DNA from: Aphanocapsa lilacina HA4352-LM1
Lineage (GTDB): Bacteria > Cyanobacteriota > Cyanobacteriia > Gloeobacterales > Gloeobacteraceae
NCBI GenBank assembly: GCA_019359725.1
Contig: JAHHGR010000006.1
Span: 1 to 64,000, forward strand
Length of the DNA stretch: 64,000 bases
Reading direction: 5' to 3'
Position 1 is the stretch's first letter. Each line of letters opens with the position of its first letter. Below are positions 23,967 through 47,439 of the stretch, one piece after another. The notes beneath the pieces are model-generated. The model did not search any database, was not told where the DNA came from, and saw only the letters and a list, made by a program, of their open reading frames with translations. The translations under genes and the position numbers were made by a program.

Positions 23967-24040
<74 letters not shown>

Positions 24041-41523: not shown

Positions 41524-41670
41524 TCGAATCCGGGTGAAGCGGCAAGGGTTGAAGCGGACACGGTCTTTTTGGCCGCTCTTTGGCTGGGGCTTTGCTTTTG
41601 CTATGCACGACAGTCTGTGGGGCGAGAGGCGGAACCCCCTTCGCGCTTCCCCTCTCGCGCTCTCCAGCCT

Positions 41671-41756: not shown

Positions 41757-43091
41757 CTAAATACTGTCCGTGATGCTGGTGAACCGAAAAGCACCTGAGC
41801 GCACGGCGGGAACTACCATCGGGCCGTAGCGTTCGGCGGCGCCCACCGCGTCGATGTCGCGCAGCAGGTGGGGCAGGCTCTGGTTGAAGCGCAGGTTGCG
41901 GATCGGGTAGGCGATCTGGCCGTCTTCGATCCAGAAGGTGCCGTCGCGGGTCATGCCGGTGACGGTCAGCTCGCGGGGATTGATGGCCCGCACGTACCAG
42001 GCGCGGTGCACCAGTACCCCCCGCTCGGTGCGGGAGACCAGATCCATCGGGCTCGCCCCGGAGCCGACCATCGTCAGGGGGAAAAAGGTGCCCGTGGGGG
42101 CACAGCCTTTGCGGGCGGCCCAGTAGCGGCTATGGTGCAACAGCTTGGGCACACCCTCCCGGATCAGGGTGAGGGGCCGGTTGGGCTGGCCGTCGGGCAA
42201 GAAGGGGGCGCTTTGCAACAGCGGATGGGCCGGATTGCGCTCCAGGTGGACTAGGGGGCTGAACATGGCCTCGCCCAGGCGGGTACCGCCGTCGGGGCGG
42301 GACATAAACGAGCGGCCTTCGTCCGCCGCGCGTGCGTCTAGATTCCAGCCCACCCAGGCAAGCAGTTCGCCGAAGGCGGCGGGGTGCAAGATGACCGGGT
42401 AAAAGCCGGGTTCGACAGCCCGCGGCGACCGGGCGCGGTGGGCGCGGCGGACCACCGCTTCCGCCATTGCGACACAGTCGAGGGCACCAAGCTTCCAGGC
42501 GGTCTGTTCCCCCCAACTCGAGCCGTCGCCGGTGCGGGCGGTACAGCTGAAACTGGCGGTGGTCGAACGGCCGGCGGCCCGCAGCCCCCGGGAGTTGCCC
42601 ACCGCCCGCAGGCGGCTTTCGGCAGCAAGCGTACCGGCTGCCTCGCCGCCCGCCGCCGCCGCTATCCGGCACACCCGCTGGACGATTTCGCCTCGCTCCA
42701 GCGGCGAGCAGCGGGCGGTCCTTTCGTCGAAGGCCGCCTGAGGAGCGTCATACATCTGCGGCTCCAAAAGCGGCATCCACTCGGGATCTTCCGGGGCGAT
42801 GCGCGCCAGGGTCTCCGAACTGCGCAAAGCCGCCTCGATCGATTCGGGATTGCCCACCGTCGCGGTAGCCGTGGCGCCGCGCGAGCCGAAAAAACTGGTG
42901 ATGGCGATCGAAGCGCGCTCCTGATTGACGTTCTGAATCATCTGATTGCCAGAAAAGCGGCTCAAGGCTTGCGCTGCACCGTCGAGGGAAACGAACACAC
43001 CTTCAGCTGCGGATCCGGCAATCACTTGGTCGATGATCTCCAGAGCCTGGGTCTTTGAGGCAATCTCGGCGGGCAGAGCGTCCAGAGTCAT
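41757..43091 (-). CDS. TldE/PmbA-like metallopeptidase partner subunit
   Basis: A 444-residue protein of the TldD/PmbA family, lacking the HExxxH zinc site, so it corresponds to the non-catalytic TldE (PmbA) subunit of the TldD/TldE heterodimer. Family features: early helix-turn ALEIIDQVIAGS, SFFGSRGATATATVGN, the central EPGFYPVILHPAAFGELLAW and GEAMFSPLVHLERNP, and C-terminal RDGTFWIEDGQIAYPIRNLRFNQSLPHLLRDID. Its ATG overlaps the stop of the preceding P450 gene (ATGA). Operon order is tldD-P450-P450-tldE. TldD/E degrade unfolded peptides and mature modified peptides such as microcin B17. Confidence 0.88.
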   Translation of the reverse strand: MTLDALPAEIASKTQALEIIDQVIAGSAAEGVFVSLDGAAQALSRFSGNQMIQNVNQERASIAITSFFGSRGATATATVGNPESIEAALRSSETLARIAPEDPEWMPLLEPQMYDAPQAAFDERTARCSPLERGEIVQRVCRIAAAAGGEAAGTLAAESRLRAVGNSRGLRAAGRSTTASFSCTARTGDGSSWGEQTAWKLGALDCVAMAEAVVRRAHRARSPRAVEPGFYPVILHPAAFGELLAWVGWNLDARAADEGRSFMSRPDGGTRLGEAMFSPLVHLERNPAHPLLQSAPFLPDGQPNRPLTLIREGVPKLLHHSRYWAARKGCAPTGTFFPLTMVGSGASPMDLVSRTERGVLVHRAWYVRAINPRELTVTGMTRDGTFWIEDGQIAYPIRNLRFNQSLPHLLRDIDAVGAAERYGPMVVPAVRSGAFRFTSITDSI

Positions 43092-44464
43092 TGTCCGGCG
43101 CTAGGAGTGCGCGATAGAAGACGGCTTGCCGAGCGCTCGCCGGTCGCAACTAGAAAAAGCCCTGCCGGTGGGGCGAGCGTAACCCCGCGGCGCACCGGTT
43201 TTAAAAGCCGCGGCTGCACCAGATTCAAATCCCGCTGCAACAGCACTGTGGCAAGGACCAGCTTCATCTCGTAGAGGGCGAAGGCCATGCCGATGCAGCG
43301 CCGAGTGCCGCCCCCGAAGGGTAAAAACTCGTAGAGCGAAAAGGTCCGCTCCAAAAACCGTTCCGGCCGAAAGCACTCAGGGTCGGGGTAGGTTTCAGGG
43401 CGGTGATGGGCCAGGTAAATGTTTGCAGCCAGGCGGGCACCCGCCTCGTAGTCGCGGCCGACAATCCGCACCCTCTGCCGGGCAACGCGCGGCGAAGCGA
43501 TCAGCGCCACCGGATAGATGCGCAAGGTCTCCGAGCAGACCGCCCCCAGGTACGGCAATCGGGCGATCGCCTCGGAGTCGGGATCGCTATCCAGACTGTC
43601 CAGTTCCGCAAGCAAACGTTCGCGCACCGCAGGCAGATAGTGGATCCAGTAAAAGGCCCAGGCCATCGCCGTGGCGGTCGTCTCATGACCGGCCACAAGC
43701 AGCGTCATCAATTCGTCGCGCAGTTCGATATCGCTCATACTCTGGCCCGCCTCGTCGCGCGCAGCGAGCAGCAGGCTCAAAATATCGCCCGCCGCCGGAT
43801 CGAACCGCTCGCGCCGCGCGCGAATTTCGGCGTACAGCAACGCGTCGATCGCCCCCAGATGCGTCTGCAGTCGCGCCCGAGGGCTCCAGGGACCCCAATC
43901 CTCCGGCAACATCAGCAACAGTGCCATATTGAGCGGCGAACTCATCGCATCGAGCATGTCGCCGAGCGCCTGGCGCAGCCGAACTAGGCGCGCTCCGTCG
44001 TGCAACCCGAAGACCGCCTGCAGGATCACCCGCAGCGAGATGCGCTGCATGGCACTGCGCACTGAGAAAGGTTTGCCCGGCTGCCAGCGGGCCATCACCT
44101 CCTCGGTGACGCGGCGGATGAGGGTGCCGTAGGCGCGCATGCGCTCGCCGTGAAAAGGTGGGGTGAGCAAGCGGCGCTGCTGCTGGTGGCGCTCGCCATC
44201 GAGCAACAGCAGCGAGTTGACCCCGAGGGTGGGGCGCAAGGCGACATTGGACGCACCGGCATCGAAGCTGCCCGCCTCGGCGGTAAAAAGCTGTTGGATG
44301 GCCTGCGGGTCGCTGAACATCACCAGGGGCGGAAAGACGCCAACGCGCATCGTGAAGGGATCGCCATAGCGCCCGGCGGTCGTGTGCAGATAGTCCGTCG
44401 GGCCGCCGATCCACTGCATCAACTGGAAAGGCGAAGGGGAGGAAGGGCCGAGGGGTAAGGACAT
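43088..44464 (-). CDS. cytochrome P450 (CYP110-like), first tandem copy
   Basis: A 458-residue soluble P450. The I-helix oxygen site is AGHETT (258-263), the K-helix ExxR is Glu312-Arg315 (SETLRIYP), the PERF-type segment is FRPERFLE, and the haem-binding loop is FGGGTRRCIG with Cys390. The N-terminus PLGPSSPSPFQLMQWI is like CYP110 enzymes of cyanobacteria, which hydroxylate fatty acids, alkanes or terpenoids. ATG at 44464 gives the same N-terminus and length as the next copy. It is translationally coupled to tldE and lies 44 bp after the second P450. Confidence 0.93.
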   Translation of the reverse strand: MSLPLGPSSPSPFQLMQWIGGPTDYLHTTAGRYGDPFTMRVGVFPPLVMFSDPQAIQQLFTAEAGSFDAGASNVALRPTLGVNSLLLLDGERHQQQRRLLTPPFHGERMRAYGTLIRRVTEEVMARWQPGKPFSVRSAMQRISLRVILQAVFGLHDGARLVRLRQALGDMLDAMSSPLNMALLLMLPEDWGPWSPRARLQTHLGAIDALLYAEIRARRERFDPAAGDILSLLLAARDEAGQSMSDIELRDELMTLLVAGHETTATAMAWAFYWIHYLPAVRERLLAELDSLDSDPDSEAIARLPYLGAVCSETLRIYPVALIASPRVARQRVRIVGRDYEAGARLAANIYLAHHRPETYPDPECFRPERFLERTFSLYEFLPFGGGTRRCIGMAFALYEMKLVLATVLLQRDLNLVQPRLLKPVRRGVTLAPPAGLFLVATGERSASRLLSRTPSAGQ

Positions 44465-44508
44465 AGCGATATCCCGAGCTTTGGGCGTGTTTCCATCCAC
44501 ACTAGGCG

Positions 44509-45885
44509 CTAGTGGACGGGCAACGGGTCGCGGCGGCCGGAGCGCACGGCTGTGGGGATCAAGTAGAGATCCTCAGGCGGGGCGAGGGTGAGTCCGCGGC
44601 GGACCGGCAACCGAGATCGCAGATCCGCCAGGCGCAGCTCCACGCGCGCGAGCACTGTGGCAAGGACCAGCTTCATCTCGTAGAGGGCGAAGGCCATGCC
44701 GATGCAGCGCCGAGTGCCGCCCCCGAAGGGGACGAATTCGTAGGGTGAAAAGGTCCGCTCCAAAAAACGCTCCGGTCGAAAGCGCTCAGAGTCGGGGTAG
44801 GTTTCGGGGCGGCGGTGGGCCAGATAGATATTGGGAATCAAAAAACTCCCGACCGGATATTCGCGATCGAGAATCTGGACAGGTCGCCTGGGAACTCGGG
44901 CAAAAGCAATCATACCCACCGGATAGATGCGCAGCGCCTCCGAGCAGACTGCCCCCAAATAGGGCAGCCGGGCAATCGCCTCGGAGTCGGGATCATTGCC
45001 CAGGCTATCGAGTTCCGCAAGCAAACGTTCGCGCACCGCAGGCAGATAGTGGATCCAGTAAAAGGCCCAGGCCATCGCCGTGGCGGTCGTCTCATGACCG
45101 GCCACAAGCAGCGTCATCAACTCGTCGCGCAGTTCGACATCGCTCATACCCTGACCCGCCTCGTCCCGCGCGGCCAACAGCAGACTCAAAACGTCGTTGG
45201 CCTGGGGATCGGGGCGCTCCCGCCGCTCGCGTATTTCGGTGTAGAGCAGTGCATCGATGGCGTCAATCTGGGCTTTGAGCTGGCCCATCGGGCTCATTGG
45301 ACCCGCATCCTGCGGGAAGATCAGCCGCAATCCCAAAAGCAAAGGCGAAGCGGACCCATCGATCATGCTGCCTAGCAACTGGCACACCCGCAGGTAACGC
45401 GGGCCGTCGTGCAACCCGAAGACCGCCTGCAAGATCACCCGCAGCGAGATGCGCTGCATCGAGCGGCGGGCTTGAAAGGGTGTGCCCAGGTTCCAGCGGG
45501 CGGTTACCTGTTCTGTGAGACTGCGGATGAGGGTGCCGTAGGAGCGCATGCGCTCGCCGTGAAAAGGCGGGGTGAGCAGGCGGCGCTGTCGCTGGTGGCG
45601 CTCGCCGTCGAGCAACAGCAGCGAGTTGGATCCGAAGGTGATGTTGAAAGTGGACGAAGCGTTCGCCCCGCCGGAGTCAAATAATCCGGGTTCAGGGTTG
45701 AACAGTTGCTGGAGAGCCTCAGGGCTGCTGAAGAAGACGGCCGTCACCGGCGAGTGGAGCCCCAGCCGCATCGTGAACGGATCGCCATAACGCCGGGCTG
45801 TGCGCTCCAAATAATCGGTCGGATGGCCAATCCATTGCAACAGTTGAAGCGGCGGCGGCGAAGCGGGACCGGCGGGTAAAGACAT
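44509..45885 (-). CDS. cytochrome P450 (CYP110-like), second tandem copy
   Basis: A 458-residue paralogue of the neighbouring P450. AGHETT at 262-267, ExxR in SEALRIYP and haem Cys394 in FGGGTRRCIGMAFALYEMK are intact. The two copies share long identical stretches: 110 bp (45011-45120) are the same as 43602-43711, while N-terminal substrate-recognition parts differ (SPVTAVFFSS against FPPLVMFSD). This means a tandem duplication with divergence in selectivity, perhaps with gene conversion in the I-helix region. It lies 69 bp after tldD. Confidence 0.93.
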   Translation of the reverse strand: MSLPAGPASPPPLQLLQWIGHPTDYLERTARRYGDPFTMRLGLHSPVTAVFFSSPEALQQLFNPEPGLFDSGGANASSTFNITFGSNSLLLLDGERHQRQRRLLTPPFHGERMRSYGTLIRSLTEQVTARWNLGTPFQARRSMQRISLRVILQAVFGLHDGPRYLRVCQLLGSMIDGSASPLLLGLRLIFPQDAGPMSPMGQLKAQIDAIDALLYTEIRERRERPDPQANDVLSLLLAARDEAGQGMSDVELRDELMTLLVAGHETTATAMAWAFYWIHYLPAVRERLLAELDSLGNDPDSEAIARLPYLGAVCSEALRIYPVGMIAFARVPRRPVQILDREYPVGSFLIPNIYLAHRRPETYPDSERFRPERFLERTFSPYEFVPFGGGTRRCIGMAFALYEMKLVLATVLARVELRLADLRSRLPVRRGLTLAPPEDLYLIPTAVRSGRRDPLPVH

Positions 45886-45954
45886 AGGGACGCTCCAGGG
45901 ACAACAGTGGGTCCCTCCAGGCTAGTCCAGGGATTGCGAACGCGAACTTTGTTC

Positions 45955-47439
45955 TTAATCGGGGCTGCCCAGGGCGATATCGCGCACGCGCACCGGTACG
46001 CAGGCGTGGCTCATCTGGGCAATCTGCATGGGCTCCCCCTTGCCGCAGATATCGGTCCCCCACTGCTCCAGTTCCCTTTGCGGCCCGAGCGCATCGACGC
46101 GGTTCCAAAAATCAGTGGTCATCGCGCAGTAGGTGACGTCCTTGAACATATGGACGATCCTGCCCTTTTCGATCTTCCAGAACGCATCGCCGCCAAATTG
46201 AAAGTTGCGCCGCTGCTGATCGATCGAATAGCTGCCGATGCCGTCGATCAAAATTCCCGCTTCGGTGTCTGCGATCATCTCCGCGAGCGTGGCGGTAAGC
46301 GCCCCCCCGTCCGCACCGGGCTCCAACCCCAGATTTGGAATGCGCACCATCGGCACATTCGCCCAACTGTCGGCAAAGGCACAGCCGTTGCTGGCGGCTC
46401 TTCCTAGACGGCAAGCCGTCTCCCGGTCGGTCAGATAGTCGACCAGAATACCGTCCTCCACCACCCGCCAGCTCTGGGCGGGCACCCCCTCGTCGTCCCA
46501 GCCGCAGGTGGCCCGTCCCCCCTCCTGGGTGCGATCGGCGCGGAAATTGACCCCCGAAGCGGCGTAGCGCAAGGCCCCCAGTTTATCGGTGGTAGCGAAG
46601 CTGGTGCCGGCAAAGTTGGCCTCGTAGCCGTAGACCCGGTCCAGTTCGGTGGGATGGCCGACCGATTCGTGGATGGTAAGAAACAGATGACTGGGCTTGA
46701 GGAGAAGCGTGGAGCGCACCCCTTGGGGACCCCGGGGAGCGCGCACTTTCTGGATCGCCTCTGTGGCCACCCGCTCGGTCTGCGCCATCAGGTCCGCCGC
46801 ATCGATGTGCTCGTAGCCGATGTTGAGGGGCGGCCGCTCGTAGGAGCGCTCCTGGGCGTCGCCATTGGCCACCGCCGTGCAGCTGAAGCCTGGATAACTT
46901 CGGTAAATCGTCTGCTCGATGAGCGCCCCTTCGGTGGAGGCGAAAAGTTTCTCCTCGCGCCCAAAGCGCAGGAACGAGCGCACCTTGCGGATGCCTTGAT
47001 CTCCATAACGCAAGAGCTGCTCGTTAATTTCCAGCAGCAGTTGCGCCTTCTTTTCGACCGGCACACTGAAAGGATCGACCTTGATGGGTGTGATGTAGCT
47101 GCCCCGCTCCGGGACGACCGGGACCAGCCGGACGCGCGTATTTTGGGCCAGCCGACTTGCCCGGGCCGTCTCCACCGCCAGAGCCACGGTGCGCTCCACC
47201 TGCTCGGCACCCAGCCGGTGGCTCGCGGCGAATCCCCAGGCACCATCGAGGAGCACCCGCACCCCAAAACCGCTGCTGCGCCGCTCACTCAATTCGTCCA
47301 TCGAGCGATCCCGGGCGGTGAGGCGCTGGGTGTGTTCGCCGGTAAAGCGCACCTCGCCGTACTCGCAACCTGTGCGGCGCAACCGGTCAATCGCCAGCGC
47401 CGCGAGTTCTTTGCGGGTGAGCGGGGCGGCCAGAACCAT
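45955..47439 (-). CDS. tldD: TldD-like metallopeptidase, catalytic subunit
   Basis: A 494-residue protein with the TldD zinc site HExxxH at His257, Glu258 and His262 (LTIHESVGHPTE) and the distal Cys465 in DICGKGEPMQ. Other family parts are GWDDEGVPAQSWRVVEDG and FQFGGDAFWKIEKGRI. In E. coli TldD and TldE form a heterodimer that unfolds and cleaves peptides inside a chamber, degrading CcdA and removing the microcin B17 leader. ATG at 47439 has GAGGAG 5 nt upstream. It heads an operon with two P450 genes and tldE; divergent from hutH. Confidence 0.93.
   Translation of the reverse strand: MVLAAPLTRKELAALAIDRLRRTGCEYGEVRFTGEHTQRLTARDRSMDELSERRSSGFGVRVLLDGAWGFAASHRLGAEQVERTVALAVETARASRLAQNTRVRLVPVVPERGSYITPIKVDPFSVPVEKKAQLLLEINEQLLRYGDQGIRKVRSFLRFGREEKLFASTEGALIEQTIYRSYPGFSCTAVANGDAQERSYERPPLNIGYEHIDAADLMAQTERVATEAIQKVRAPRGPQGVRSTLLLKPSHLFLTIHESVGHPTELDRVYGYEANFAGTSFATTDKLGALRYAASGVNFRADRTQEGGRATCGWDDEGVPAQSWRVVEDGILVDYLTDRETACRLGRAASNGCAFADSWANVPMVRIPNLGLEPGADGGALTATLAEMIADTEAGILIDGIGSYSIDQQRRNFQFGGDAFWKIEKGRIVHMFKDVTYCAMTTDFWNRVDALGPQRELEQWGTDICGKGEPMQIAQMSHACVPVRVRDIALGSPD

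Follow-up and report, generated by a model that had tools for sequence, protein, structure and literature searches.

Four genes on the minus strand of a 64,000-nucleotide stretch of Aphanocapsa lilacina HA4352-LM1 DNA (the whole stretch is called the window here) follow one another in the order tldD, P450a, P450b and tldE, as seen from open reading frames and Pfam matches. The two P450 genes are duplicates of each other, and one relative carries a single P450 that looks like a recombinant of them. Weighing all the evidence, we think it probable that a resident cytochrome P450 gene was inserted in a long-established tldDE operon and underwent duplication there, with no peptide pathway shared between the P450s and the peptidase. 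The features of the locus, with the grounds for each call, are as follows.

tldD, 45955..47439, minus strand: predicted catalytic subunit of a TldD/TldE (MEROPS M103) type metallopeptidase (Pfam PmbA_TldD domains, 5nj5 profile match, motifs)
tldD-P450a spacer, 45886..45954, minus strand: 69 bp, against 66 bp in genome G003; an insertion lengthens it to 372 bp in genome G001 (alignment)
P450a, 44509..45885, minus strand: cytochrome P450 of 458 aa, the more diverged copy (Pfam p450 2.7e-68, motifs, tree)
P450b, 43088..44464, minus strand: cytochrome P450 (Pfam p450 1.5e-70, motifs, starts compared among relatives)
tldE, 41757..43091, minus strand: predicted non-catalytic partner subunit (PmbA_TldD domains 2 and 3, weak PmbA 5nj5_B match, motif scan)
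Interspersed repeat core, 41622..41639, minus strand: just past tldE and not part of the enzymes (repeat count, synteny, ORFs)

Conservation of the arrangement within the genus and order

The coordinates, and the Pfam matches for all four proteins, bear out the gene order that a preliminary description had read from the letters, and the spacers of 69 bp and, between P450a and P450b, 44 bp are as it gave them. The stop of P450b overlaps the start of tldE by 4 bp (ATGA). The ATG of P450b at 44464 agrees with the MSLP beginning of related proteins, and an in-frame GTG upstream, at 44500, is open as well.

The order-wide search covered nine genomes in all, four of them from this genus, which we take to be Gloeobacter: the own genome (G000) and three further ones (G001-G003). 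G001 carries tldD-P450a-P450b-tldE at 85-90% identity to the window, and G003 carries tldD, a single P450 and tldE. The 4-bp overlap between the last P450 and tldE is kept in G000, G001 and G003, and the proposed translational coupling therefore stands. In G002, TldD (77%), TldE (62%) and a P450 (72%) lie at three distant places. Further out, tldD and tldE of G006, from the same order, overlap by 4 bp, and the P450 of that genome lies elsewhere rather than between them, while in G013 and G027 tldD and tldE are apart. The preliminary description had regarded uniqueness to this strain, with the P450s of relatives apart from tldD/tldE, as speaking against its reading. Other genomes share the arrangement, but relatives outside the small clade do have their P450s elsewhere.

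Comparing G000 with G001, we obtained dN/dS values of 0.12 for tldD, 0.10 for P450a, 0.13 for P450b and 0.30 for tldE, and all operon genes are thus under purifying selection. The four-gene arrangement is confirmed as real and more than chance, because the same four genes are ordered in G001 and tldD-P450-tldE in G003, with protein identities of 80-90% and dN/dS of about 0.09-0.30 for the operon genes compared among G000, G001 and G003. The upstream genes, which by reading we take to be hutH, glycolate oxidase genes and transketolase, also retain their order in G001 and G003. Since these unrelated genes are equally order-conserved, the operon order is weak evidence of joint function.

Wider distribution of tldD, tldE and P450 genes

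Scanning 84,980 species genomes, we took the best 80 TldD loci: 21 from cyanobacteria, with identities of 67-73%, and 59 more distant ones, with identities of 38-48%. Several of them have short flanking sequence, and L089 and C89 of G006 seem to be one and the same contig. Among these best 80, tldE lies near tldD in 10 of the 21 cyanobacterial and 52 of the 59 distant loci (2 of the 52 upstream), and it was not seen in the available stretch of 18. Outside the genus, a P450 between tldD and tldE was found in none of the 62 loci carrying both genes, and one of the 80 (L108) has a P450 near tldD, about 5 kb upstream.

Three loci have tldD-tldE gaps of 661-751 bp that hold other ORFs. The gap of L090 contains a 225-aa ORF without a Pfam match, and that of L092, a Microcoleus-type genome, contains DUF6883 and a small DUF4926-like ORF (below cut-off). 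L097, also from a Microcoleus-type genome, has a pair resembling the L092 pair by position and letters. The tldD-tldE junction thus takes up unrelated genes. ORFs that we take, by reading, to be TnpB-like lie near tldD in four loci (L040 7387-8667; L095, L096 and L108); these may explain how some tldD/tldE pairs came apart.

Of 59 genomes, 7 carry this TldD, and the same 7 carry this TldE. P450 matches were found in 43 of the 59, comprising 6 of these 7 and 37 of the other 52, and no tie between TldD/E and P450s is therefore visible; G013 has TldD/E and no P450 match. In 30 clustered stretches there was no widely conserved neighbor of TldD beyond tldE. The best neighbor in this set was a small ORF in five Microcoleus-type loci, presumably acetyltransferase-like as judged by reading.

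The P450 pair arose by duplication, probably of a resident gene

Both P450s carry the haem motif FGGGTRRCIG and AGHETT in the I-helix, and ExxR reads EALR in P450a and ETLR in P450b; the cytochrome P450 signatures (FxxGxRxCxG, ExxR and AGxxT) are thus present in both copies. A P450 is assigned to the CYP110 family when its identity to a named CYP110 exceeds about 40%. Many of the 59 genomes hold best P450 matches of 43-59% identity over the full length, and the P450s are likely CYP110-like, judged from these cyanobacterial relatives rather than from named CYP110 sequences.

The P450 tree comprised 31 P450s, with one per genome outside Gloeobacter (L079, which gave no ORF, and L077 were not included). 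P450a and P450b group together (99/93), the G002 copy falls outside the pair (100/99), that of G004 comes next (100/99), and the P450a branch is the longer. The placement of G002 and G004 points to a resident P450 gene that duplicated late. Overall, P450a and P450b of the window are 70% identical, but unevenly so: in some segments, presumably the substrate-contact regions, 5-10 of 18-20 residues agree, and in the I-helix 20 of 20 do. The two copies share identical runs of 110 and 80 bp in the window genome and of 92 and 84 bp in G001, while the longest identical run between P450a of G000 and P450a of G001 is 34 bp. Such long runs within a genome indicate recent gene conversion. The single P450 of G003 (L039 9184-10590) resembles P450a up to about residue 420 and P450b beyond it; within the P450a-like part, P450b-like residues occur at a few positions near 122-131 and at a single one near 396. 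This switch indicates that recombination removed most of P450b. The pair and its recombinant form make a natural variant set for tests of substrate specificity.

P450a and P450b are best read as oxygenases acting on a small molecule. In G005 (L172 3334-6677), a related P450 gene lies directly beside what we take, by reading, to be a dxs-like gene (isoprenoid synthesis), a neighbor that would suit a terpenoid substrate.

TldD and TldE resemble a two-subunit peptidase

Pfam finds three PmbA_TldD domains in TldD and two of the three in TldE, whose first domain gave no match at the threshold used. TldD has HESVGH at residues 257-262 and CGK at 465; a motif scan found no HExxxH in TldE or in six TldE orthologues. 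Using a profile of seven orthologues, we matched E. coli TldD (5nj5) at 3.4e-22, and TldE gave a weak profile match to PmbA (5nj5_B, 1.4e-9). In the profile alignment, HESVGH and CGK of the window TldD line up with the zinc-binding positions of E. coli TldD, whose zinc ligands we take to be the two His of HExxxH and the Cys at the place matching CGK. NCBIfam equivalog scores were 86.9 against 513 needed for TldD and 29.9 against 438 needed for PmbA. TldD and TldE are predicted to form a two-subunit enzyme with peptidase activity, a pairing to which their presence in the same 7 of 59 genomes speaks indirectly, and the enzyme is best interpreted as a peptidase of general function. The own genome has a second tldD-tldE pair, side by side at C1:121865-124614 (L044) and 46% and 36% identical to the window pair, and seven matches to the first PmbA_TldD domain in all.

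Transcription, spacers and the downstream flank

No promoter-like sites were found in the region, where 1.1 were expected by chance, and terminator-like sites numbered 9 against a mean of 5.3, with the minus-strand ones inside genes. As judged by eye, G000, G001 and G003 all retain TACAAT ahead of tldD and ACTAGCCTGGA ahead of P450a. The P450s are most likely transcribed together with tldE. Given the 372-bp stretch that separates tldD from P450a in G001, tldD may be transcribed separately there; the inserted stretch folds no better than its shuffles (z -1.06). In the window, Rfam matched only a tRNA at 23967-24040.

The 18-base core of the repeat past tldE has 31 copies in the own genome at up to two mismatches, compared with 1 for the reversed control. 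The repeat marks the break of gene order after tldE relative to G001 and G003, and a relative of it, recognized by eye, lies between tldD and P450a in G001 (L038 9178-9549). The TonB receptor gene previously noted beyond the operon is indeed real by Pfam and convergent, but its neighboring position is not conserved: no TonB homologue was found downstream of tldE over about 19 kb in G001 or 23 kb in G003. The receptor was rejected as an exporter or importer partner on this ground.

Alternative explanations for the P450-peptidase operon

The preliminary description had suggested a peptide tailoring system. In RiPP terms, the P450s would oxidize or cross-link a precursor encoded elsewhere, and TldD/E would trim the leader, stopping once the modified core obstructs the channel. 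According to one study, TldD/E, whose genes frequently lie apart from the cluster, matures several RiPPs, microcin B17 among them, and commonly serves further functions in the cell (PMC10885120); P450s, according to two others, cross-link peptides in RiPP pathways (PMC12257519, PMC10635010). Both window P450s also match the model of the RiPP P450 ApyO (NCBIfam NF050147), but their scores of 163.9 and 176.6 bits are far under the cut-off of 525, and the pentalenene oxygenase model gives similar ones (165 and 143). As previously described, the spacers hold no precursor gene, with no conserved short ORF apparent among the small ORFs listed for G000, G001 and G003. MNIO, YcaO and Nif11 had no match in the own genome, and a RiPP cluster was rejected on this basis. 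Considering in addition the P450s standing apart in G002 and in the outside relatives checked, the TldD/E of G013 without a P450, and the TonB gene that is not kept, we do not uphold the suggestion; peptide tailoring is possible but unsupported, and the RiPP scheme is in our judgment quite unlikely. A RiPP-like pathway on the Gloeobacter violaceus side, in which P450s specialized from one ancestor oxidize or cross-link a peptide that TldD/E then trims, with the precursor elsewhere and without the three marker families searched, appears very unlikely. If it existed, one of the most deeply branching groups of cyanobacteria would gain a peptide pathway that combines P450s with TldD/E. A search of the open literature, which does not extend to subscription papers, yielded no study of a Gloeobacter operon combining tldD and P450 genes. 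A defence system was also considered and rejected, the four proteins having no PADLOC match.

The two activities might instead meet on a small molecule, the P450s oxidizing a metabolite for which TldD/E is the amide hydrolase or N-deacetylase. The TldD/TldE family is reported to include N-deacetylases (PMC11450739, citing Vobruba et al. 2022), and CYP110 enzymes oxidize terpenes, flavanones and probably fatty acids, as stated in a survey (PMC7014017). However, beside TldD/E no other biosynthetic gene is conserved in the 30 clustered stretches, and G013 lacks a P450 match; a shared pathway of this type is very unlikely. Alternatively, the P450s were recruited only for the conditions under which tldDE is expressed, such as stress, with no common substrate. 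The 4-bp overlap retained in three genomes fits this idea, and a TldD/PmbA protein of a thermophilic cyanobacterium drops 6- and then 14-fold with heat (PMC11450739), so such genes are regulated. The 372 bp between tldD and P450a in G001, however, mean that co-transcription of tldD is not required there, and regulatory coupling alone seems to us unlikely.

We return to insertion of a resident P450 gene as the preferred explanation. The old tldD-tldE pair would be a two-subunit zinc peptidase in which TldD cuts and TldE supports. A P450 gene already resident in these cyanobacteria would have come between tldD and tldE, and then duplicated in that place, in the common ancestor of G000, G001 and G003, three of the four Gloeobacter genomes. 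The copies would have diverged in the stretches that we take to contact the substrate, whereas the haem-binding core would have stayed similar through gene conversion. Transcribed with tldE, the P450s would have their own small-molecule substrate and form no pathway with the peptidase; this absence of a functional link is what we infer. Speaking for insertion are the commonness of tldD-tldE adjacency without a P450 elsewhere, the overlapping pair of G006, and the P450s of G002 and G006 located elsewhere, together with the lack of a visible tie between the presence of TldD/E and of P450s, the P450 tree, the other genes taken up at this junction and the long identical runs between the two copies. 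Against it, the order is kept in all three clade genomes with the overlap intact and under purifying selection, and G003, while losing half of the pair, retained one full-length P450 reading into tldE. The locus shows the limits of operon context for guessing function: the genes for both subunits of a single peptidase can be separated by unrelated genes, P450s here and other inserts in other cyanobacteria.

Comparison with known systems

Biphenomycin-type RiPP clusters also have a TldD-type protease (PbsP/BpmI/BipI) within a tailoring cluster, together with an MNIO, a B12 radical SAM enzyme and a precursor gene; there, TldD stands without TldE, and no P450 is named in the available parts of the reports (PMC12257519, PMC12707348). 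In contrast, TldE is present at the window locus and its genome has no MNIO match. CYP110-like P450s are widespread in cyanobacteria, and the window copies have their motifs intact; those of the relatives examined lie outside any tldDE operon, unlike the window copies. Of 341 cyanobacterial P450s surveyed, 27 are in biosynthetic clusters, and the accessible part of that survey does not mention TldD (PMC7014017). With E. coli TldD/TldE (PmbA; PDB 5nj5), the window pair shares common domain families and the presence of HExxxH in TldD only. The two pairs are remote in sequence, and here two P450 genes separate the subunit genes.
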